A DNA stretch of 64,000 nucleotides, taken from assembly GCF_003171515.1 (NCBI RefSeq), contig NC_089394.1, positions 3,162,001 through 3,226,000 on the forward strand, in the 5' to 3' direction. The stretch comes from Pyrenophora tritici-repentis. Its lineage: Eukaryota > Ascomycota > Dothideomycetes > Pleosporales > Pleosporaceae. Below are positions 32,901-45,355 of this stretch, piece by piece. Each line of letters begins with the position of its first letter. Within the stretch, counting starts at the first letter, position 1. Below the pieces are notes generated by a model. It was given only the letters and a program-made list of their open reading frames with translations. It was not told the origin of the DNA and ran no database searches. Both the position numbers and the translations under genes were made by a program.

Positions 32901-33153
32901 ATGCCTGTTGTATTGTCGCTCTTGCGCTTCGATAGAGTTTCCATACATTTTAGCGTTTTCAAGAAGAAGACGACTTCGAGCATGCGCAACGGGTGTTTAT
33001 TGCTTCGATGTATAATTGTCAGCATCTACGCCTACCTAGGAGTAACGTATTGTATCAGTCATCGGCCAGCCCCAAAACCCACCAAAAAACACGAAAACCG
33101 CACCTTCAGATCTCAACAACAGCTTGGTAGAAACATTTGATAATTTAAACATA

Positions 33154-34979
33154 ACCTGTTTTATCAGTGAGCGCCCCACCTCAGTGAGCGCCCCACGAAC
33201 ACCAGCGAAGCGCATGCGCGACACTCAACACGTAATGTCTCAACAACCACAACCTCACAAGCCCTATACTGAAGCTGACGTGCAGCTTGCCCTCTCTGAC
33301 ATTAAATGCGACCAGATTACGAGCCTGCGACGTGCTGAGGCAGTCTACAGCGTTCCTCGTAGGACGATACAACGACGACGCGACGGGAAGCCCTCTAGAC
33401 GCGACTGCGAGCCCAGATCAAAGCGCCTGACGAAGCTAGAAGAGGAAGTGATTCTGCAGCGTATACTTGACGAGAACCTACGTGGAGTACCGCCCTCAAA
33501 GCTACACGTACAAGATATGGCTGATAGACTGCTGCGCGACCGCGGCGGTGAGCCTGTTGGTAAATGCTGGGTTGACAGGTTTATTAAGCGTACACCTGAG
33601 CTGCGCACGCGCTGGACTCGTCCATACGATCACCAGCGAGCTCTCTGTGAAGACCCAGCGATCATCGAGCCCTGGTTCACGCTGGTTCAGAACATGAAGG
33701 CGAAGTACGGTATTGTGGACGACGACATGTACAACTTTGACGAGTCTGGCTTCCTGATGGGCAAGATATCTTCACAACTTGTTGTGACAGGCATAGAGAA
33801 ACCTGGGAAAGCGAAGAAGCTTCAGCCTGGTGATCGCGAGTGGACTACGTAAATACAGGGCGTCAGCGCAACAGGGCGTGTTATCCCACCCTTCCTCATC
33901 TTTGCCGGCAAGGTTCTTATCTCTAACTGGTTTACTGAGGACCTCCCACGCAACTGGGTTATTCAAGTAAGCCCAACAGGCTGGACGAACAACAATCTAG
34001 CGCTCGCCTGGCTTGATCACTTTGATACGCATGCGAGGCCTGTAGGAGCGTATAGGCTGCTGATTATCGACGGCCACGAGAGCCATTGCTCGATAGATTT
34101 CCAGGATCGCTGCAAGGAGAAGAAGATTATTGCCCTCTGTATGCCTCCACACTCGTCGCACCTCCTGCAGCCGCTTGACGTCGCCTGTTTCTCGCCATTG
34201 AAGCGCGCGTACGGTGATCAGATCTCAGCCTTGGCACGCGATCGCATCAACCACATCAGCAAACAGACCTTCTTACCAGCCTTTGAAGTAGCTTTTGAGA
34301 AGGCGTTTACAAGAGAGAATGCTTGCGCAGGGTTTCGAGGCGCTGGATTGTCTCCACATGATCCACAGGCTGTGTTATCGAAGCTGGATGTGCAGCTGCG
34401 TACGCAAACTCCACCACAGCAAGTCGACGCCGCTTGGGAGGCGAAAACACCACGCAACGCCAAAGAAATGGAGGCGCAATTAACACTGGTTCGAAACAGG
34501 ATGAAAATCCATCGAGGGTCTCCAGCAAGTTCACTTGATGAGCAGGTGCGGCAGCTGACAAAAGGCGCGCAGCAGATGGCTCATGAGATGGTGTTGATGC
34601 GCGCAGAGATAGTGCGCCTTAATACTGCTACTGAAGCAGCAACAAAGCGTAAAAGTCGCAAGAGACGCTACGTACGGGCAGAGGAGACACTAACAGTCGG
34701 CGAGGTATTAGACTTAATTGCTGAAAGGGAGGGTGGCAGACGTGAGGAGAGTGAGGAGCCGGCGAAGAGGGTGCGCGCAGGGCGACGCTGCGGCCGTTGC
34801 GGTGAGATTGGGCACAACTCTCGCACCTGCAAGGTAGAAATTGAGGATATAAATAATAGTGACGCTTCTGAATAATACTATACTGTTGCAAGAGTACAAA
34901 ATTTGTGTTGTGGTGCTGAGCTACGTCGCTGCGCGTACGCCTCGCTGGTGTTCGTGGGGCACTCACTGATAAAACAGGT
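33154..34979 (+). mobile_element. Complete pogo-type (Tc5/CENP-B-like) transposon, 1826 bp
   Basis: Inverted ends of about 46 bp start ACCTGTTTTATCAGTGAG and are flanked by TA at 33152-33153 and 34980-34981. The left end carries an extra tandem copy of a 17-bp piece (CTCAGTGAGCGCCCCAC) that the right end lacks. One transposase frame fills the interior. Confidence 0.92.
33214..34875 (+). pseudogene. pogo-type transposase with one in-frame TAA
   Basis: It starts at ATG 33214 (MRDTQHVMSQQ). A psq-type helix-turn-helix (SLRRAEAVYSVPRRTIQRR) is followed by a CENP-B-type HTH (KLHVQDMADRLL...GKCWVDRFIKR). The DDE core has YNFDESGFLMG, IIDGHESHCS and MPPHSSHLLQPLDVACFSPLK. The C-terminus has a coiled region and a CCHC knuckle (CGRCGEIGHNSRTC). 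TAA at 33850-33852 separates EWTT from IQGVSATGR in the same frame. Everything else is open, so a single change inactivated it. A family relative on another locus could still act on its ends. Confidence 0.9.
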
Positions 34980-35077: not shown

Positions 35078-35395
35078 ATGCCGCCTACTCGACCCCCTAA
35101 ACGTCCGCGCAGAGACGCGTTTGCACCAAACAAGCGCGCCAAGGTCGCTGCTCGCAGTATAGAGTCGCAGCCTATCCACATTAATAAGAGCTAACAGCCA
35201 GCTCAGCGTCTATCACCGCGCAAAGCCCTGGCGACTGTCGCGTCCCAGGCTACCGAGCCGCCCACCTTCGAATCGCAGTTGCGCGAGAGTCAGCCTAAAG
35301 CCGCTATCGTAGCGCTAACCGAGGGCAGCAGCGCCGCGACAGTTGCTATAATTAAGGACGACGAGGACGGCAACGAGGATCGTGTTACGAACCTA
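35078..35395 (+). pseudogene. 5' fragment of a hAT transposase (relative of 8587-9563)
   Basis: MPPTRPPKRPRRDAF..., Lys/Arg-rich, has one TAA (35192-35194) and then PTFESQLRESQPK, matching STFESQFRDS of the copy at 8.6 kb. The leaders before the ATGs also resemble each other. The frame loses similarity near 35395. Confidence 0.7.
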
Positions 35396-37519
35396 AGGAG
35401 AGGACACAGTGCAAGATATGAAGGGCAGAAGGATGGAGACCTTGTCGGAATCCCTTCTCAGACAAAGGCGTACAAAGGTGTACAAGGACCAATGACGTAA
35501 GCCTGCCCCGCATCCCATAACGTGTCTGTGCGCGTGATGCCCATAATCGCGTGCCGCACACCCCACCAATATCGCGACGACGGCAAAGTTGAGGCTGTGC
35601 AGCCACGTACAATAACTATTATCGCGAGATTTTCCGGTGTATTGATCTATAGACGTAGCTCTACAACTTTGTCTATCTATATTTTGCCGGAGTATTGACG
35701 GCCCGGCCGCGTCGGGTGGTTGTTGGTGGGGAGCCGGTGCAGCCACCTCAGCCAGAGTGCCACCGCCAGCACCACCCACGCGTCGTTTTTTTGGCTGTTG
35801 CTTTGCAGCGGGCTTTGAAGCCTTACGCTTGCCCGATTGGGGTTGTTGTATAGCCTTTGCAGCGTCGCGATCGCGTCGTTTGGCGTCAAGTTCGGCAGCC
35901 TTTACAGCCTTGGCTTCATCCCGCACCTTCTTTGCCTCCTCACGCGCCGCCCGCGCTGCCTCTTTGATCTTAAGTTGATAGATCCTGTTGTTCTCCTTTG
36001 CCTCTTTCAACTCTATCTTATCAAGTAGCTCTTTCTCCTTCTCCTTCTCCTTCACTAGCTGCCTGAAGCGGGCCTCTCGAAGCTTGCACGGCGACCACCA
36101 AACTGCCCCTGAATGGAACGCTTTTCGCTGCTGTAGATCTAGGGGAGGTTCGTGCCGATTGCGGGGCTTCTGGTGAACGTGTAGCGCCGCGCGCAGTGCG
36201 TCCTTCTCGTACTCGGCGATCTCTTTGGCAGCCTGGAGGCGGAGGAGTATTTCTGAGAGGTTGTTGGCCGCAATAGAGCTCGGATCGTAGGCCTGATTAA
36301 TGAGGTTCGTGATAGTAGCTCTACTCACGTTCACTAGTGGCGGCGGTGCTGTTAGTGTTGACTTTCGGAACTTTTTAAGTACTACTTCGGGATCTATAGG
36401 AGCTATCCCAGTGGCTTTAAATGCCTTCAACGCGTGCTTCTTAATGAAAGAGGAGTCCCAGGCAGGCTTGAAAAGACGGTAGAAGTCATCCTTCCTCACA
36501 GCTAAGAGACCGTGGCTCGCCTGGAGGTAGTGCTGCAAGCTGAGTGAGTACGCGGCTGCCAGAGGTTTGAACATTACCACATCGAGTGGCTGCAGCGTAT
36601 GGGTACTATGGGGGGGTAGTATGAGTAACATAATATTGTGGGCGATCGCATAGTCAATAAACTCCATAGTAACGTGACTCCCATGGCCGTCAAGGATGAG
36701 TAAGCGTGTGTGATTGCCGGCCTTCTCCTTCGTATGGCGATCAAACACCTGTTCGAGCCATGCCAGGCCTACCTGATCATTGGTCCACCCTGAGGGACTT
36801 GAGGTAACGTAGACTGGATCGTCAATTGCGATATCATCAACCCATCTGGCGTACATGTTGCCCGAAGTAGCTTCGTATATAATCGCGGGCGGTAACGTAC
36901 TCCCATCAGCACATATAGCAGCGATAACAGTGATCCAATCTCTGTTGCCGTCCTGTATCACTTTCTTAAAGCCCCCAGTCTCATATTTCTGCTTACTAAA
37001 CACTCTCTTACTCCTCCCCGTCACTCCAATAAGGAATCCCTTCTCATCCATATTATATACATCCTGCGCCCGAATATGGTGCTGAGCCATTTTAGTAGAT
37101 AGTAGATCAAAGTACGACTCGTACTTGTATACAGAATCAGCCCGGTGGCGATTGCGGTCCAAACCAGTTGACCAACGTGATATAATCGCGTCGGGATGAC
37201 GGTGAAAGAAGCGCGTCACCCAGCTTTGGGAGGTAGCCCTTCCGGCTATAGCACTAGCAAAGTTCTGGATCATAGTCCTCGTCGGTGGTAAGCCAGCCTC
37301 AGTAAGCTCGTCAATGTGCTCTAGAAGCTGTAGCTCCTGGTGTGGGTGAAGGAGTTGCTGATTACGTGATTTGGCTTCATTTGAGCCCCGGATCTGTTGA
37401 TGGCGTCGCGACAACGTAGAGCGATCAACACCAAAGCGGCGCGCAACCTCAGAGTATGTAAATTTATCTCCGGGATCACGCGATTCAATAGCTTCAATCG
37501 CAGCGTTGATACAACTCAT
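35393..37519 (-). CDS. Fot1/pogo-type transposase, intact, frame runs out through the TIR
   Basis: ATG 37519 (MSCINAAIEAIESRDPGDKF). Domain order: psq-like HTH (FGVDRSTLSRRHQ), then CENP-B HTH (SQSWVTRFFHRHPDAI). The DDE core has YNMDEKGFLIGVTGRSKR, LLILDGHGSHVTMEF and LPPHSTHTLQPLDVVMFKPL. A Lys/Glu-rich coiled coil and a basic tail (KRKASKPAAKQQPKKRR) follow. The frame has no stop inside the element; it passes through the terminal repeat and stops in flanking DNA at 35393. The last 40 or so residues are therefore host-encoded. The functional part probably ends near 35700. Confidence 0.9.
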   Translation of the reverse strand: MSCINAAIEAIESRDPGDKFTYSEVARRFGVDRSTLSRRHQQIRGSNEAKSRNQQLLHPHQELQLLEHIDELTEAGLPPTRTMIQNFASAIAGRATSQSWVTRFFHRHPDAIISRWSTGLDRNRHRADSVYKYESYFDLLSTKMAQHHIRAQDVYNMDEKGFLIGVTGRSKRVFSKQKYETGGFKKVIQDGNRDWITVIAAICADGSTLPPAIIYEATSGNMYARWVDDIAIDDPVYVTSSPSGWTNDQVGLAWLEQVFDRHTKEKAGNHTRLLILDGHGSHVTMEFIDYAIAHNIMLLILPPHSTHTLQPLDVVMFKPLAAAYSLSLQHYLQASHGLLAVRKDDFYRLFKPAWDSSFIKKHALKAFKATGIAPIDPEVVLKKFRKSTLTAPPPLVNVSRATITNLINQAYDPSSIAANNLSEILLRLQAAKEIAEYEKDALRAALHVHQKPRNRHEPPLDLQQRKAFHSGAVWWSPCKLREARFRQLVKEKEKEKELLDKIELKEAKENNRIYQLKIKEAARAAREEAKKVRDEAKAVKAAELDAKRRDRDAAKAIQQPQSGKRKASKPAAKQQPKKRRVGGAGGGTLAEVAAPAPHQQPPDAAGPSILRQNIDRQSCRATSIDQYTGKSRDNSYCTWLHSLNFAVVAILVGCAARDYGHHAHRHVMGCGAGLRHWSLYTFVRLCLRRDSDKVSILLPFISCTVSSP

Positions 37520-37619
37520 GGTTGTGGAGTTATGGGTGGTTGAAGTGGTAAGGGTGGATTGGTGTTGATGTTGCGGGGTGTGCGGCACGCGATTATGGGC
37601 ATCACGCGCACAGACACGT
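35520..37619 (-). mobile_element. Complete Fot1/pogo-type transposon, 2100 bp
   Basis: About 44-bp terminal inverted repeats (ACGTGTCTGTGCGCGTGATG...) match perfectly by eye. They are flanked by TA at 35518-35519 and 37620-37621. The transposase is uninterrupted. Perfect ends and an open frame suggest a recent, potentially active insertion. Confidence 0.93.
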
Positions 37620-37621
37620 TA

Positions 37622-38025
37622 AAGCTTGGCGGAACGCCACCATGGGACATGTCACGTGTGTCCCAAGGAATCCCACGATGTACCACGATGTCCCACGCAT
37701 GGGACAGTGTAGGACAACGTAGGACGTATAGGACATAGGACATTCGTTAGTATATAACAATAGGCAATGAGCCCTTACGGTTCATTGTGTTCAACTTTGA
37801 AATCTAAGGATTAGTACTTGATTCTCAACTCCCCGTATATTACATCGATCTACCAATCGTGCTATACACCCTCGTGTCCATCGCATCACTCTATCCCCGA
37901 GAACCAACCCAAGATCATCTTCGGACGACCTTCACAGATCGCGACAAGGGTCTTGATGATCGCTTTGCCGACAACTTTAACGGCATAGATTAGTCGCGTT
38001 TACCGCTATATTGCAAGCCTGTAGC
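37622..38025. other. Gene-free flank between Fot1 and the histone-bearing hAT
   Basis: 37640-37745 is dense in GGGAC/GTCCC and TAGGAC repeats. About 37888-37915 (CTATCCCCGAGAACCAACCC) recurs at 45951-45970. No coding frame. Confidence 0.5.
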
Positions 38026-38182
38026 TACGCTGGCAAATGGGTCGGGGTGTGGTTGGGGTTGGGTTAGAAATTTTGCGACCCCAACCCAGCCCCAACCCAT
38101 TTGTCAGCGCCAAGCTTAGGGTTGGGTTGGGGTTGGGTTGGGGTCGCACGGACCATGGGTTAGGGTTGGGTTATAGTAAAAA
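38026..38182 (+). repeat. Left GGGTT-rich terminus of the hAT, with foldback
   Basis: The outermost 85 bp form a foldback (TACGCTGGCAAATGGGTCGG ... CCCATTTGTCAGCGCC). The inner part matches the right end inverted. Confidence 0.78.
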
Positions 38183-38337
38183 AATTGCAAGATGTATAAT
38201 ATAGATTTCAATAAAAGAAAAGTTTATATAGTATCACAGTAGATTAACACAGTGTAGCATTAACTAGTTTCATTTATAATATACAGAGGCTTCGCCAGCT
38301 AGCATTTAAGCACGTGTATCTAGATATATCTTATAAT

Positions 38338-38909
38338 CTAGAGAAAAGCTAGTAACTCGCGCGCAAAGTAGCGCCTAGCCAATTGAGAATCCTTCTCTTG
38401 AATAGTAACCCTCTTTGCGTGAATAGCATTGATGTTGCAGTCTATAAAAGTTATTAAATGAAAAATAGTATAGGGTAGATAGACTATACCCTCAAAATAA
38501 CCAACTAAGAAAGCTTCTGTAGCTTCCTGAAGAGCTTCGATTGCAGATCGTTGAAAGCGGATATCGGCCTTGTGCACCTGTGCAAATTCGCGCACTACGC
38601 GGGAAAAGGGGAGTTTTCGCAAGAGTAGTTCAAAACCTCTCTGGTATCTCTTGATTTCCCGTAATGCGACAGCTAAGCTAAATTAGAAAATAGCTGTGAT
38701 AAACGACTGTGATAACCTACTGCCGGCCTTAAACTTGCGCTTCTTCTTAACAGCTACAGGTGCCTTTCGCGTAGACTTTCCTGCTACTTGACGTCTAGCC
38801 TTACTAGCAAGGGCCTTCTGAGCCGGCTTGCCGCCAGTAACTGTCTTGCCATCAGGACCACCCGGCCGGCTTTACCGGTGACCTTAGGCCGTGGTTTTGT
38901 CCTTGCCAT
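38338..38909 (-). pseudogene. Histone H3-like gene inside the hAT element (three exons, one frameshift)
   Basis: Exon 1 (38721-38909) starts MARTK, as H3 does. After one frameshift near 38861-38875 it gives a Lys-rich tail (KSTRKAP, KKKRKFKAG). A 48-bp intron (38673-38720) joins it to exon 2 (38490-38672): [50 protein letters not shown] second 48-bp intron (38442-38489) joins exon 3: [18 protein letters not shown] and QLARR, with a 9-residue C-terminal extension. The histone fold is complete; alpha-N, L1 and L2 residues diverge from canonical H3. Both splice joints restore H3 colinearity exactly. The H3K9-K14 part of the tail is not conserved. The frameshift may make this copy a pseudogene, or exon 1 may splice differently. 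It is a divergent H3 variant, not a copied canonical H3. Confidence 0.85.
38673..38720 (-). other. Intron 1 of the H3-like gene (TTATCACAG family)
   Basis: GTAGG-TTATCACAG-TCGT-TTATCACAG...CTAATTTAGCTTAG, 48 bp. It joins ..KAG(A) to (CT)VALREI. Confidence 0.8.
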
Positions 38910-39419
38910 TGCGTAGTAGAGTAGATGATGAACGTAGGCGACGTATGTGATTAATTACTGTGATAAATGTGGTCGACAATTAAGAAAGTAGTAGGCTGAA
39001 AGAGTTAGGTAGCTGGAAAGTTTGGGCGACGGCAATTTCCCGATTTCCGCACTAGTAAAGGCAGCAGCGCACGGACTGCATGACGTAATTTGCTGTTTCA
39101 CGATCGCATACAACCATTTCTGTTGCAAAATCAGTAGCGAGCATATCATACAAACGTGTTAAACTGCTGTGATAAACGCCGAGCTCGCGCATGCGTGCAG
39201 CCCAAAAATGAAGGAATCATCGATGTGTTGATCATTTTGGGTAATTTCCGCGTTTTCGCGCTAGCGCAGGCAGCAGCGCACGGACCATTTCTAGGTGAGC
39301 ATAATGCTGTCTACCCATTTCTCCAGCCCCTGACGCCCAGTAACTCCCAACACCTAATAACTCTCTTTACTACATTGAAAACACCCCATTTACAACAGCG
39401 CATTATCACAGTCCCCGCC
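38910..39419. promoter_or_regulatory. Divergent promoter region between H3-like and accessory gene
   Basis: 510 bp between two opposite starts. A block ending GGCAGCAGCGCACGGA occurs twice as a direct repeat (about 39040-39080 and 39243-39284). The TTATCACAG motif occurs three times (38958-38966 and 39167-39175 on the minus strand, 39403-39411 on the plus strand). Co-expression is an inference from the arrangement. Confidence 0.6.
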
Positions 39420-40623
39420 ATGCCTGTCGCGAAAGAGCAAGTCGGCGACGTACCTGAAGGCCTAGTTCCAGCCATCAAACTTGAACCTCCGCCTGGGTTC
39501 GAACAAGATGAGTGGGAGCAGCTTACCGATGTAATAATCACAGCCATTTATCACAGCTTATGCTAATATAAGCAGGGATTTGCGTGTGAAGCTGACGAGA
39601 TTGACGGTATCTTAGATCAAAGAGGTAGTGGGGGTTCACGAAAAGGCCGACCTATCAATTTGAGCGTCCCCTATACTGGCTCTCTGAGTGGTAGCGCCCG
39701 TGCTATTGCTCAACGTGAACGCAAAGCTCTTTTCGATAAAGAGGAGAAGGTACTTGAAAGCGTTAGAACAGCCGACCGCTCCGCGAAGTACCAACTGAAG
39801 AAATCGCTTTTGCAACAGCCTAAGTATAAATTAGCAAATAGTGCTAGACAGGCTAAGCTGCTAGAGAAAGAGTGGGATATACTTTCAAAGAAGCGGTTTA
39901 CCCAGAAAAAGTCTGGTAAGTTATCACAGCTGTTTATCATAGACATCTGCTAATAGACTATAGCTGAATGGCTAGAGACAAACCTAACTCATGTGCATCG
40001 TAAATGGGATGCGATCACTAAGCAGGTGGATATGAGAAAACACGAGATCACGATTGCGCAAGTGCTTAGCAAAGATGACAAGCCCACCCATGACATTAGT
40101 GGTAGAGGAATAGCAAGAATTTACGGCTCAGGTGGTGTTTTGCAAAAGATTCTTCGAAAGACCTATCAAGAAGGATTAGCAAAGCTTAACAACAACGACT
40201 TTGAGAGCAAGGAGGCTAAGAGAGAGTTTGAGAAGTTCGTGGAGGAACTTACACCTGATGAGATGAAAGTCGTAACTGATAATGACTGGCAGTAAGTTTA
40301 TCACATCCTTTTATCACAGAGATACTAATATAATAAGGCAACGGGAGCCACCTAGCATTCTCGACTTACTTGGTGACGCTGATATTGAGCTGGAGGGTGA
40401 TAAGCCGTACGTTAAAGGTGACGATAGCGATGAGTGTGAAGAAGAGGTTGACTATGACTCTGATCTTGAGGAGCATTTCAATTCACTTGAAGACGAGTAC
40501 GAGGATGACGACCAGTGGGCTGCTGTACAGAAGCAGGCAGCGCTTGAGGAGTCTGAGGAATCTGAGGACTCTGAGTTTGAGGGGTTTCCGGATTCTGATG
40601 CCGCTTCTGAGTCTGATAATTAG
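39420..40623 (+). CDS. Accessory gene of the hAT: Lys-rich protein with acidic tail (354 aa, four exons)
   Basis: Exons 39420-39530, 39576-39915, 39964-40291 and 40338-40623 join in phase into 354 residues with no stop. The N-terminal part is proline and acid rich (LEPPPGFEQDEWEQL). The middle is Lys/Arg-rich and helical (AQRERKALFDKEEKVL, AKLLEKEWDILSKKRF, WLETNLTHVHRKWDAI). The last 80 residues are very acidic (DDSDECEEEVDYDSDLEEHF, LEESEESEDSEFE). No family is recognised. Acidic tails occur in histone chaperones, and the gene lies head to head with an H3-like gene, so a histone-binding role is a testable guess only. All three introns carry the TTATCACA motif. It is intact, unlike its neighbours in the element. 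Confidence 0.78.
39531..39575 (+). other. Intron 1 of the accessory gene (TTATCACAG family)
   Basis: GTAATAATCACAG...TTTATCACAG...CTAATATAAGCAG, 45 bp, phase 0. The acceptor may alternatively be 3 bp upstream. Confidence 0.75.
39916..39963 (+). other. Intron 2 of the accessory gene (TTATCACAG family)
   Basis: GTAAG-TTATCACAG...TTTATCATAG...CTAATAGACTATAG, 48 bp, phase 1. Confidence 0.8.
40292..40337 (+). other. Intron 3 of the accessory gene (TTATCACAG family)
   Basis: GTAAG-TTTATCACA...TTTATCACAG...ACTAATATAATAAG, 46 bp, phase 2. Confidence 0.8.
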
Positions 40624-42171
40624 AGTTTTAGGCTAAGACACTTTCAAGCATTGAGGGATAGTAAGCAGTTATCACAACCAATTAACACGGATTATTGCGC
40701 CATATAATCTTAACTTAAGATTGTGATCTGTCATTTATGCAGATTAATATCCGTGCACTCCTGACGATCTCTGTGTTTACTATGAGGCATTAAAAATGAT
40801 ATTCCGCTAGTAATATGCCAAGGTTTCAAGTTAAATTACAGGCGTCATAGCGCAAGCAAAGCTGAGAGGAGCGTGAGAAGCCTTGAGTCCTACATCCAAA
40901 CTTAAACTTCTCAACTTTTTCCTATTGTGTGCTACTACTATTAATGCCTTATTCTACTACTTTCTAGAAGCGATGGACATAGCTGCACAGTCTATTGAGC
41001 TTATGCCTAATCCTACTAATATTGAATTTCCGGAGGACCTCAACTGTTTAAAAATCAATTCTCCACAGGTTACAAAGGGGGTGACAGGAGAACGATTGGA
41101 TTAGTGAAATATCCAAATAATCGTTTTCTGCAAGATTATAGTGTAAGTGAGATCTTAGGGACATGGACAGCGTGGTGGAGTAATACTAGCTGGGGTATAA
41201 ACCCTAAAAATGATAACCCACGATGGAACTCTCCTACTCGCTATGGCACAGTATGGTTACGATTTGGAGAAGCTGCTGAGCTTCGAACTGGCCACCCCTA
41301 CGTGTTCTGCTACAACTGTAGTCTTGCACTCCAGCATCCAAATCTAGGTGGTATTGGGACAAAGCACCTTATTACTCATCTTAAAACAAAAAGCTGTCGA
41401 AATGTCCTTACTCCTATTCATAATGAGGCAGACTTATCGGCCTCTACTCTATCCCAACGTCAACAAAGAAACAGTACTTCATCAATACCAGCTTACACTA
41501 CTACTACCTTTGAAAAGGAGCTTGTACGGGTAGTAATCGACAGCAACTGGTCATTCCGAACAGTTGAACGACCATCTTTCCATCGATTTCTTCGGTTCCT
41601 TCGACCAGATACTGTGATAATTAGTCGTTGTAAATTCAAGACGATATTCAAGAGTCAACATGAGGAAGCAAAAAGGTCTATCCTTCGAGATCTTGGAAAA
41701 TCAACAAAGATCTCAATCGCCTTAGATGCCTGGTCTGCAGCTAATCACCTCTGCTTTCTTGCGGTAAAGGGTTACTACATTAACAAAGACTGGAAACTTC
41801 AGGAAAAGCTACTTGACTTTCTCCCTATGCGCGGCAGGCACACCGGTACTTCTATGGCAGACGAGGTACTGCATATTCTTCTGGATACAAAGACCAAAAC
41901 CCAGCTTCTAGCTATTACTTGTGATAACGCTAGTAACAATAGCGTACTTGCTCGCACTCTCCAGTCTAAACTCCAAGAAGTCGACATTCAGTGGAGTGCC
42001 AGAGAAAACACTATCCCTTGCCTTGCCCATATTATCAACCTCGTTGTCCAGGATATTATCCAACACCTTCGGCTAGCAGCAACTACAGAGTTAGGAGCAA
42101 GGGATACCCTACAGAGACGTCATATACAGGACATTGAGACGCATATTTCAGTCCCAAATTCCCTTCGCAAG

Positions 42172-42220
42172 GTATTTCGCTTTTAACACATTCATTTATC
42201 ACATACTAATAATAGACTAG
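42172..42220 (+). other. Intron of the hAT transposase (TTATCACAG family)
   Basis: GTATTTCGC...ATTTATCACA..ACTAATAATAGACTAG, 49 bp, phase 0. Confidence 0.8.
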
Positions 42221-42844
42221 ATAAGGGCGATTTGTATCGCTATTGACGTATCACCTCAACGCTTTGAGCGGTTTATTGCGGTACAACAACATCTACCGCC
42301 AAAGGAGCGATTATCTGTTATCCGCGACGTGAAAACCCGATGGAACTCAACATACGACATGTTAGAGCGCGCGCTCAAAATCCAAAAATATATTGATGAA
42401 TGGCTTAAACAAGAAATCTTGCTAAGGCCAGGTAGTCACCTGGATAGCTCTCTAGACAACAATCAAATGGCTGAGATTGATTTCCGGGATCTTAAACGCC
42501 TCCGCTTATCTTCGACTGAGTGGCATCATCTCGAACTCGTTACTGAGATGCTTAAACGGTTTAAAACAGCAACTAGCTTCCTCAGCCAGAACGAGAAGCC
42601 CCAGATTCAGTATATTTGGTTAATGTACAATCGACTGTTTGATTTCTTGGACAAAATGTCAGAGGACCTAGATGAGGATGAAGAAAATCAAGATGATAGG
42701 GAATGGCTAGACGTAGTACGAGCTGCAGCTGACAGGGGTCGTCTAAAACTGAGCAAGTACTATTCGAAGACAGACGCAGAACGTGGGTTCTTGTTTAATT
42801 GTGCCACTATCCTTGATCCAACGCAGAAGCTTACAGCATATGAA

Positions 42845-42895
42845 GTATGATTATCACAGCTATTTATCACAGTCACGCTCTAATTACGCTTATAG
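42845..42895 (+). other. Intron of the hAT transposase (TTATCACAG family)
   Basis: GTATGA-TTATCACAG-CTAT-TTATCACAG...CTAATTACGCTTATAG, 51 bp, phase 0. Confidence 0.82.
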
Positions 42896-43689
42896 GACGA
42901 TTCATGGGAGCCACAGTACAAGCATCTCTACCGAGGCCAATTTCTTGCTTACCTTGATCGTTATGATAATACGGACGGGAGAGGTTCAACCCCAGGCTCT
43001 AGCATAGTCAAAAGGAGGTCACTTGGGAATGAGTGGTTCAGAAAGCCAGCTCCTCCCCTACATCAGCGTTAAACAGCTTTTCTTCCCAGAACTCTTCACT
43101 AGTAGAATCAGACAAGACAACTGGCCCAACCCGCCAAGAAGGAGAGTCCTACCTTAGTACTGCCTGTGTAATGACAGATGACTCTTTCGATATTCTAGAG
43201 TGGTGGAAGACGAACGAGCCTACCTACCCACGACTATCCCAAGTGGCGAAGGATATACTAGCAATACCAATTGCTCAGGTTGGGGTTGAAAGAGTTTTCA
43301 ATGTTGCTAAGGATGTTATTGGTAGTCGGAGGCACCGACTATCTGCCCGGACAATACAGCAGATAATGGTTCTTAAGGATACAATATCTCAAGAGGAAGA
43401 ACAGGGTCTAGACTACCTAGTTGCTCAATTAGGGGAGGATGGAGAGCCAATTGACGAGGTTAATGATCTTTTTGAGCTTCCAGCCTCGTTAGAGCATACC
43501 TTCGATATAGATGAGGAGAACCAGACTACAGAAGAAGAGTCGGAGGAAGAGGTCCAGGAGGAGCGTCAATTGCCACCTCGAAAGCGCCAGCGTCCTCAGC
43601 GCTACCGTGATAATTAGCTGTGTTAATATATCTCGTTTTATGTATCTACTATATCATCAACGTGTACACATTATCTTAATTAAGTGTTG

Positions 43690-43895
43690 TTCCGTTAAAG
43701 TACCCAAAAAATATAACCCAACCCCAACCCAACCCAACCCAACCCAAGCCCAACCCTACCACTTGGTCTGTGCGACCCCAGCCCAGCCCTAACCCATGGT
43801 CTGTGCGACCCCAACCCAACCCTAACCCATGGTCTGTGCGACCCCAACCCAACCCCAACCCAAGACTGGGTATACCCAACCCATTTGCCAGCGTA
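43690..43895 (-). repeat. Right GGGTT-rich terminus of the hAT
   Basis: Read inward it starts TACGCTGGCAAATGGGTTGG. It contains three tandem units of about 32 bp with TGGGGTCGCACAGACCATGG and ends in (GGGTT)n. It matches the left end inverted. Confidence 0.85.
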
Positions 43896-44044
43896 GTGGC
43901 ATCTAGGATGTCCTTACCTCATGAACCGTCACAAATTTGTTATCGGGGAGACGAATTTGCGCAGCAGGCCTTAAGGGTCGTTTTAATTCCTACACACTGT
44001 CCTTTAAACTAGGAAAGAAGACGATTATTAAAGTAACTATAGAC

Positions 44045-44178
44045 TACGCTGGTAAATGGGTCGGGGTTGGGTTGGGGTTGGGTTACCTTAATAGGTAATG
44101 ACTAGGCTAACTTGGAACTAGTCATTACCTATTAAGGTAACCCAACCCCAACCCAACCCCGACCCATTTACCAGCGTA
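44045..44178. mobile_element. 134-bp palindromic hAT MITE with 8-bp duplication
   Basis: Two near-perfect 59-60-bp inverted arms (TACGCTGGTAAATGGGTCGG, then GGGTT repeats, then an AATAGGTAATGACTA-like arm) surround a loop of about 14 bp. CTATAGAC at 44037-44044 and 44179-44186 is a perfect target duplication. Its ends match the large hAT at 38026-43895, so that family's transposase probably mobilised it. Confidence 0.93.
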
Positions 44179-44186
44179 CTATAGAC

Positions 44187-44711
44187 GATAGTCTCTACGT
44201 AGTGTCACACATTGCAGATAGATACTAAGAAACAGCATTTCTAGGCACAGAACTCGATGCACTAGCCTAAGATACAGAAGTCCTTCTGTCAGATTTTTAT
44301 GGATGGGATCAAGTGTGTATTGTTGTCAGATTTAAGGCCTGAAATCTGGTCGAGGTCAGACTAGTGCGACCCAGCATCTGTGAGAGCCAATCAGATCACA
44401 GGAAGGCTTGGCACCCCCTAGGTGTGCCCACAACCGTAGACAGAACCGACACACAATCAATAATGAACATCATCACGATCATCACCCATTTCATCAGTAT
44501 TCCAAATGAGAGTGAATATTTGACAATTGTCTGTCTCTGTCTACGGCTCTGTCTGTGGGAGGTGGCCTCGCCTCGGGCTTGGCAGTGCTAAGTCCCGGCG
44601 CTAGCCCTGGTTTGGGGGTCTCATGTCCTTCCCCAACCACCATCGGCTCGATCATGGAGCAAAACCTCGCCTCAATCTGACACCTAGCCACTTTACAGTG
44701 TCTTTGTGTTT
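44187..44711. other. Gene-free stretch truncating the next Fot1
   Basis: I see no supported gene. Several short palindromes (CAGATTTAAGGCCTGAAATCTG near 44327) are present. The Fot1 frame loses homology near 44712. Confidence 0.45.
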
Positions 44712-45355
44712 TGCTTCTGCCTATCAAGCCAATCAAGAAGCCCTTCTCGTCCATATTGTATATATCTCGAGCCTCAAGGTGGTATTCAGTGATCTTTCGA
44801 TGCAGTAGCTCGAAGTAGAGACGGTATTTAGACTCAGAATCAGCCAGGTGGCGCGTACGATCCATGGCGGTGGTCCACTTTGAGATAAGATGGATCTCGT
44901 GTCGGTTGATGAAGCGAGTAACCCAGCTCTCGCTGAGCTGCTGATGGGCTACTTCAGATGAGAAATTCCTAATCATCTCTCTTGTAGGAGGTAGGCCTTT
45001 GTTTGTAAGTCCTTCAATATATCGTACAAGCTCTGACTCTTGTTGTGGGTTGAGAGCTTGCCTGCTGGCATGCCCGGCATCCCTAGGCCCTGTCACGCCT
45101 CTCCATCGCCGCCCCAGAGTTGACCGGTCAACACCATGCTTTTCAGCAACTTCCTTCAATGTAAATTGTTCTTCTGAACCTCGCGATTTTAGATCTTCAA
45201 TTGCCTCATCAATTGGAGCCATGGCTGTAGAGTTATCGCGCGTTGGAGTTGTGGTGTTGAGACGCGCGTTGGTGTTCTGCGGGGCACACTGTGAATCCGG
45301 GCACACTGTGAATCCGGGCACACTGTGAATCCGGGCACACTGCGCACGGGCACGT
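44712..45355 (-). pseudogene. Truncated Fot1-type element, 5' end
   Basis: The outer end is ACGTGCCCGTGCGCAG.. (minus strand from 45355, TA at 45356-45357), followed by three to four tandem CCGGGCACACTGTGAAT units. The transposase starts at ATG 45222 (MAPIDEAIEDLKSRG). It keeps both HTH regions (HGVDRSTLGRRW, SESWVTRFINRHEIHL) and the first Asp block (YNMDEKGFLIGLIGRSK), then ends in unrelated sequence at about 44712. It belongs to the same subfamily as 59503-61440. Confidence 0.87.

Follow-up and report, generated by a model that had tools for sequence, protein, structure and literature searches.

The 64,000-nucleotide stretch analysed here (the window; NCBI RefSeq assembly GCF_003171515.1, contig NC_089394.1, positions 3,162,001 to 3,226,000) is part of the 40.9-Mb genome of the fungus Pyrenophora tritici-repentis and contains a hAT transposon that carries a histone H3-like gene, H3L, together with a transposase gene and a third gene that lies between the two (the central gene). 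The burst that produced the present copies of this element is recent, and H3L is an old H3 lineage with relatives in other Pleosporales. Comparison with these relatives suggests that H3L is an old, maintained part of the transposon and not a recent accident. The H3L element is already known, and its detection in a preliminary description of the window, made from the sequence, is a rediscovery; the copy in the window is almost certainly the P. tritici-repentis element published by Manning et al. 2013 (PMC3538342). The observation made in the preliminary description is confirmed, and its interpretation is partly supported. The limits of the element and the parts of the H3L gene are as follows.

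38026..43895, plus strand (transposase orientation): hAT element, long form, 5,870 bp, delimited by an alignment of 30 fetched stretches and by ends common to the copies
38026..38042, plus strand: left terminal inverted repeat, TACGCTGGCAAATGGGT
43879..43895, minus strand: right terminal inverted repeat, ACCCATTTGCCAGCGTA
38721..38909, minus strand: H3L exon 1, encoding the tail; frameshifted in the window copy
38673..38720, minus strand: H3L intron 1, with a paired TTATCACA motif
38490..38672, minus strand: H3L exon 2, ending in GYFE
38442..38489, minus strand: H3L intron 2, the sole intron of the element without the paired motif
38338..38441, minus strand: H3L exon 3

The preliminary description had placed a three-exon, H3-like gene at 38338-38909, and these coordinates proved exact: the gene lies on the minus strand, with its ATG at 38909 and its stop codon ending at 38338. 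Both introns are 48 nt long, and alignment indicates that the spliced product is colinear with H3. The histone profile PF00125 matches the exon-2 frame alone with an E of 6.7e-23 and a spliced, 158-residue relative with an E of 1.5e-31. The frameshift in exon 1 is real, as 41 residues are followed by a stop, and it is common to the window copy and L009, a copy that is also truncated. The canonical host H3 (the host H3 and CenH3 genes are L001 and L002) shares the histone fold and is approximately 60% identical to H3L over it, whereas the H3L product is 22 residues longer and belongs to a separate clade. One intron was located in host H3 and one in CenH3, and neither H3L intron coincides in position with either of them; a host-gene origin of the H3L introns was rejected on the basis of these differing positions.

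The gene is inside a hAT element, as first described, with 17-bp inverted ends at 38026 and 43895 and a transposase containing a Dimer_Tnp_hAT domain. A genome-wide search with PF00125 returned 41 matches, 33 of which are H3L of the element type. The 33 element copies extracted comprise 11 long and 22 internally deleted forms, assigned by alignment except for both L018 copies, whose form was taken from the genome-wide matches. In the short form (~2.6 kb), position 39961 is joined to 43232 at a 6-bp identity, 'gactat', and the left breakpoint falls in intron 2 of the central gene. L028 (G000 C7:1126500-1136400) and L033 (C18:4400-14399) each show two short H3L elements in inverted orientation, approximately 755 bp apart. 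These are one locus on two contigs, C18 being a reverse repeat of the C7 locus and probably an assembly duplicate, and the copies consequently represent 31 separate element loci.

Matching 8-bp target duplications, with sequences that vary by site, flank 23 of the 28 elements that have both ends in the fetched stretch, or 22 of 26 when L033, as the second assembly copy of the L028 locus, is dropped. Matching flanks are missing from the window copy, from L012 and from L035; the remaining two of the five are a single element of the L028 locus, counted twice. At the window element, the flanks at 38018-38025 (CCTGTAGC, left) and 43896-43903 (GTGGCATC, right) differ, which recombination between elements or a one-sided deletion could explain. 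The missing duplication at the window copy is the point in favour of H3L being a host gene family situated beside unrelated hAT insertions. Such a family is extremely improbable given that 33 copies have common ends with H3L always inside them and that the exact duplications differ from site to site. A host H3 locus with a nearby insertion, one of two outcomes that the preliminary description had set against its own reading, is refuted by the common ends and site-specific duplications, most copies lying between the latter. The other, that no further copy of the element carries the gene, fails as well, since 33 copies carry H3L.

Two papers describe hAT elements bearing H3-like sequences. Manning et al. 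2013 (PMC3538342) described 'H3L' as a transduplication in a hAT element of P. tritici-repentis with long (~5.6 kb) and short (~2.3 kb) forms, a 'gactat' junction, and a central open reading frame. They counted 26 near-identical copies, two of them frameshifted, found H3L transcripts among expressed sequence tags, and compared H3L to the H3s of Candida, Culex, and others, raising and leaning to drift. The element described here agrees with theirs in species, hAT dimerisation domain, three genes, tail insertion, both forms, and the 'gactat' junction. It differs in the lengths measured between the ends (5.87 and ~2.6 kb) and in copy number, with 33 in the present assembly versus 26. Dhillon et al. 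2019 (PMC6710886) reported a hAT element with an H3-like sequence in the Mycosphaerellaceae Pseudocercospora, Cercospora, and Sphaerulina. That 9.5-kb element contains an intronless H3 retrocopy, is present in hundreds of copies inactivated by repeat-induced point mutation (RIP), and was reported to be unrelated in sequence to the element of P. tritici-repentis, a case that these authors called recent and independent. Both are hAT elements with 8-bp duplications and many copies bearing an H3-like sequence; in contrast to the element of Dhillon et al., P. tritici-repentis H3L has two introns and its genes are mostly intact. The preliminary description knew of no published hAT element containing a histone gene, and in this it was wrong, because both of these reports are in print. 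Relative to the text available from the two papers, the present analysis adds a supported H3L clade with relatives, a gene pair in P. teres, the loss of K9 and K36 from most family members although all keep K14 and K18, and a paired intron motif.

The best protein matches of H3L (P0001, P0002) are annotated as 'histone H3 [Pyrenophora tritici-repentis]' and are 99% identical to it. Among the 120 matches listed, H3L relatives are distinguished by a YY-type C-terminus that replaces the canonical RLRGER. They occur in P. teres (P0054, P0094), Paraphoma (P0058), Alternaria alternata (P0065), Massariosphaeria (P0066), and the metagenomic sequences P0067 and P0069. Two P. tritici-repentis proteins, P0032 and P0041, are H3L variants with replaced C-termini, perhaps owing to gene-prediction effects or to insertions in the copies of other isolates. 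A histone-fold tree of 14 rows, which kept P0094 and left out the P. tritici-repentis variants P0002, P0032, P0035, P0041, and P0053, places H3L and its relatives on one side of a branch with 99/98 support. Across this branch stand CenH3 and H3 of the host together with four further fungal H3s; the branching order inside the H3L clade is not resolved by the tree. The earlier description of H3L as an H3 variant and not a fresh copy of the host gene is correct. Identification of H3L as CenH3/CENP-A was rejected on account of the position of CenH3, represented by one row, across the 99/98 branch. The loop 1 insertion of CENP-A is absent in P. tritici-repentis H3L, and the metagenomic P0069 has a two-residue insertion.

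The age of the association is indicated by P. teres f. teres 0-1, in which an H3L gene (CFE70_001393, 58% identity) and a homologue of the central gene (CFE70_001394, 65% identity) have consecutive locus tags; the contigs in the two records are equally long, at 5,608,903. Consecutive tags at this level of divergence imply that H3L and the central gene have long travelled together and, judged from these sequences, the module formed by the two is older than the recent burst of copies.

Residue conservation was counted over seven family members, one per source, with P0094 excluded as a near-duplicate of P0054 with an internal gap, and with lists of DNA-contact and H3-H3 residues. R49, R53, R69, R72, R83, R116, T118, and D123 are invariant in all seven. 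Host residues are kept in 116 of 140 alignment cells at DNA contacts, 55 of 77 at H3-H3 contacts, and 285 of 434 at other globular positions, while N110 and Y130 stand in place of the host residues in every member. In the tail, lysines are largely kept (K14 and K18 in 7/7; K23, K27, and K37 in 6/7; K4 in 5/6), with P. tritici-repentis H3L having lost K27 too, and the residues mostly lost are K9 (kept in 2/7), S10 (1/7), and K36 (2/7). The two members that bear K9 are the metagenomic ones, and these have S or P among the residues preceding it. The R8-K9-S10 context matters for the methyltransferase KMT1/DIM-5.

Within the P. tritici-repentis genome, the search for intact relatives urged in the preliminary description was successful: the 158-residue H3L frame is present in 30 of the 33 copies, of which 27 are identical, two carry one change, and one carries a different change. 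The remaining three consist of two frameshifted copies and one, L037, that is diverged and RIP-mutated. L037 has 279 substitutions, of which 228 are C-to-T or G-to-A changes, and 183 of those changes fall in a CpA/TpG context; this pattern is the mark of RIP. All other long copies are 99.7-99.95% identical to one another.

Whether H3L does anything for the element was weighed against these results. That H3L functions as a histone and is of some benefit to the element would be consistent with the kept residues and the long association, and we regard the chances for and against it as about even. Two observations weigh against such a function. The variation of H3L within the genome carries no signal of selection, as the 30 intact frames have one silent and two replacement sites where the expected replacement-to-silent ratio is 2.7, and the tail pattern, which fits avoidance of K9 methylation, is also expected of a fast-changing tail. 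Alternatively, H3L may be a captured passenger that drifts, is useless to the element, and survives only since the copies are young. The near-identity of the long copies, the lack of visible constraint among intact frames, and the tolerance of the same frameshift in two copies all favour this explanation, and drift was raised by Manning et al. (PMC3538342). It would, however, require long co-retention of the divergent P. teres H3L and the central homologue beside it by locus tag, and it does not account readily for nucleosome residues kept across the family or for the derived N110 and Y130 in all seven members; on balance we consider it rather unlikely, though a real contender. H3L could also act as a decoy or poison that draws H4 and chaperones away from host H3, loosening chromatin genome-wide and raising transposition generally. 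The presence of over 30 potential expression units in a single genome, the divergent tail, and the extended, YY-containing C-terminus would suit such an activity, but a decoy has no need to keep its DNA-contact and H3-H3 interface residues, and the host tolerates approximately 30 intact copies. The residues that a working H3 requires are retained across the family, which speaks against a poisoning of host nucleosomes, and this explanation appears improbable.

The other two genes of the element, and the region upstream of the central gene, have the following parts.

38912..39419, no strand: upstream region common to H3L and the central gene, with paired motifs at 38946 (minus), 39155 (minus), and 39390 (plus)
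39420..40623, plus strand: central gene, four exons, transcribed divergently from H3L; 354-residue product in intact copies
39531..39575, plus strand: central intron 1, with paired motif
39916..39963, plus strand: central intron 2, with paired motif
40292..40337, plus strand: central intron 3, with paired motif
40973..43617, plus strand: hAT transposase gene, three exons, interrupted in the window copy
42172..42220, plus strand: transposase intron 1, with paired motif
42845..42895, plus strand: transposase intron 2, with paired motif

The transposase of copy L029 contains Dimer_Tnp_hAT with an E of 2.4e-20, above the curated cut-off, and its match to hAT-like_RNase-H (E 0.041) is below the cut-off. 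The central protein was modelled with AlphaFold2 from an 11-row alignment. The model is helical (mean predicted local distance difference test score 70.9, predicted template modelling score 0.42) with a disordered acidic end, and it has no match in the PDB above noise. This acidic C-terminus, with 30-40 acidic residues among the last 85, is present in all eight full-length homologues checked. Relatives of the central protein number 22 at an E of 1e-4 or better and come from P. tritici-repentis, P. teres, P. seminiperda, Boeremia, Exserohilum, Parastagonospora, and metagenomes. Other isolates of P. tritici-repentis have a second central protein, P0131, which is 43% identical and whose reading frame continues across an intron in the same position; this suggests a second lineage of the element in some isolates. 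A relic of a related element is located at G000 C7:2008581, with 59% identity over 79 residues of the central protein.

The three genes also share a short motif. Exact copies of TTATCACA number 15 in the element, where 0.19 would be expected and none of 500 Markov simulations gave more than 2; the remaining 58 kb of the window contain three. With one mismatch allowed, same-strand neighbours within 60 bp are spaced 13 bp apart in nine of nine cases. The resulting pair, TTATCACA-N5-TTATCACA, is found with up to four mismatches at 18 places in the element, some overlapping, whereas 30 simulations averaged 0.8 and never exceeded 4; elsewhere in the window it is found at four places. In twelve of the pairs there are no more than two mismatches. 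Six of these are intronic, occupying six of the seven element introns directly after the 5' splice site and always sense to the gene; four are upstream of genes, namely the three in the common upstream region and one at 40669 (plus); and two are downstream and point inward, at 38231 (plus) and 43606 (minus).

The pattern appears to extend beyond this element. P0141, a metagenomic relative that is 52% identical to the central protein, is translated through the same intron as KLSQLFIT, nearly matching the KLSQLFII of the window intron, so that the intron position and motif appear to be conserved across divergent elements; P0142, another relative, reads KLSHYIIT at the intron. A genome-wide pattern search for the paired motif returned at least 188 matches versus one for a reversed control and, among the matches listed, all but three fall in element copies. 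The three outside are in a truncated copy (L047), in a Tc1/mariner-like gene (L048), and in L049. The idea that the motif spread among host introns in the manner of an introner was rejected, since the listed matches are nearly all in element copies. If the motif were an RNA signal, such as one for splicing, its sense orientation in introns would make sense; the inverted pairs close to the two ends of the element would be accounted for by a DNA-binding protein. No earlier report of the paired motif was found in the limited literature collection searched.

The surroundings of the element contain further transposon sequences. A miniature inverted-repeat transposable element (MITE) of 134 bp, at 44045-44178 of the window, has the terminal repeats of the H3L element with a one-base difference and an exact 8-bp duplication, CTATAGAC. 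This MITE is probably mobilised by the transposase of the H3L element. A genome pattern search for its ends identified seven pairs of ends separated by 111 bp, plus a lone end. The frames at 33046-34875, 35393-37618, and 44494-45354, whose translations were read by eye, resemble Tc1/mariner-type DDE transposases with helix-turn-helix starts.

Taken as a working histone, H3L would pair with host H4 and enter nucleosomes. Its tail lacks the usual ARKS context of lysine 9 and keeps the acetylatable lysines 14, 18, and 23. Without this context, nucleosomes containing H3L would be poor substrates for silencing through H3K9 methylation, and element copies would consequently stay transcribed. We infer that H3L has a chromatin role that serves the element; escape from K9 methylation as its specific route is a tentative and rather unlikely proposal. 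Histone chaperones have acidic tails, and the acidic central protein, which is divergently transcribed from the common upstream region, may carry H3L. This carrier role is guessed from the charge and the common upstream region, and is a long shot. The fullest version of this reading envisions a lineage of pleosporalean hAT elements equipped with their own chromatin tools. These would be an H3 variant that is unable to receive the K9 silencing mark in its usual context and is deposited on the element as an antisilencing device, a partner with an acidic tail, and the TTATCACA-N5-TTATCACA motif in introns and upstream regions of all three genes, which would let one factor, at the RNA or DNA level, control all three genes. 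In its entirety, this combination is quite unlikely.

These findings shift the reading of H3L from a recent capture to an old, transposon-borne H3 lineage. If this is true, it can be asked whether a transposon evades heterochromatin by supplying its own nucleosomes, as a single crop pathogen harbours approximately 30 intact copies of a natural H3 with a differing lysine-9 context. Whether the three genes are regulated as a unit can be asked separately, through the paired intron motif.
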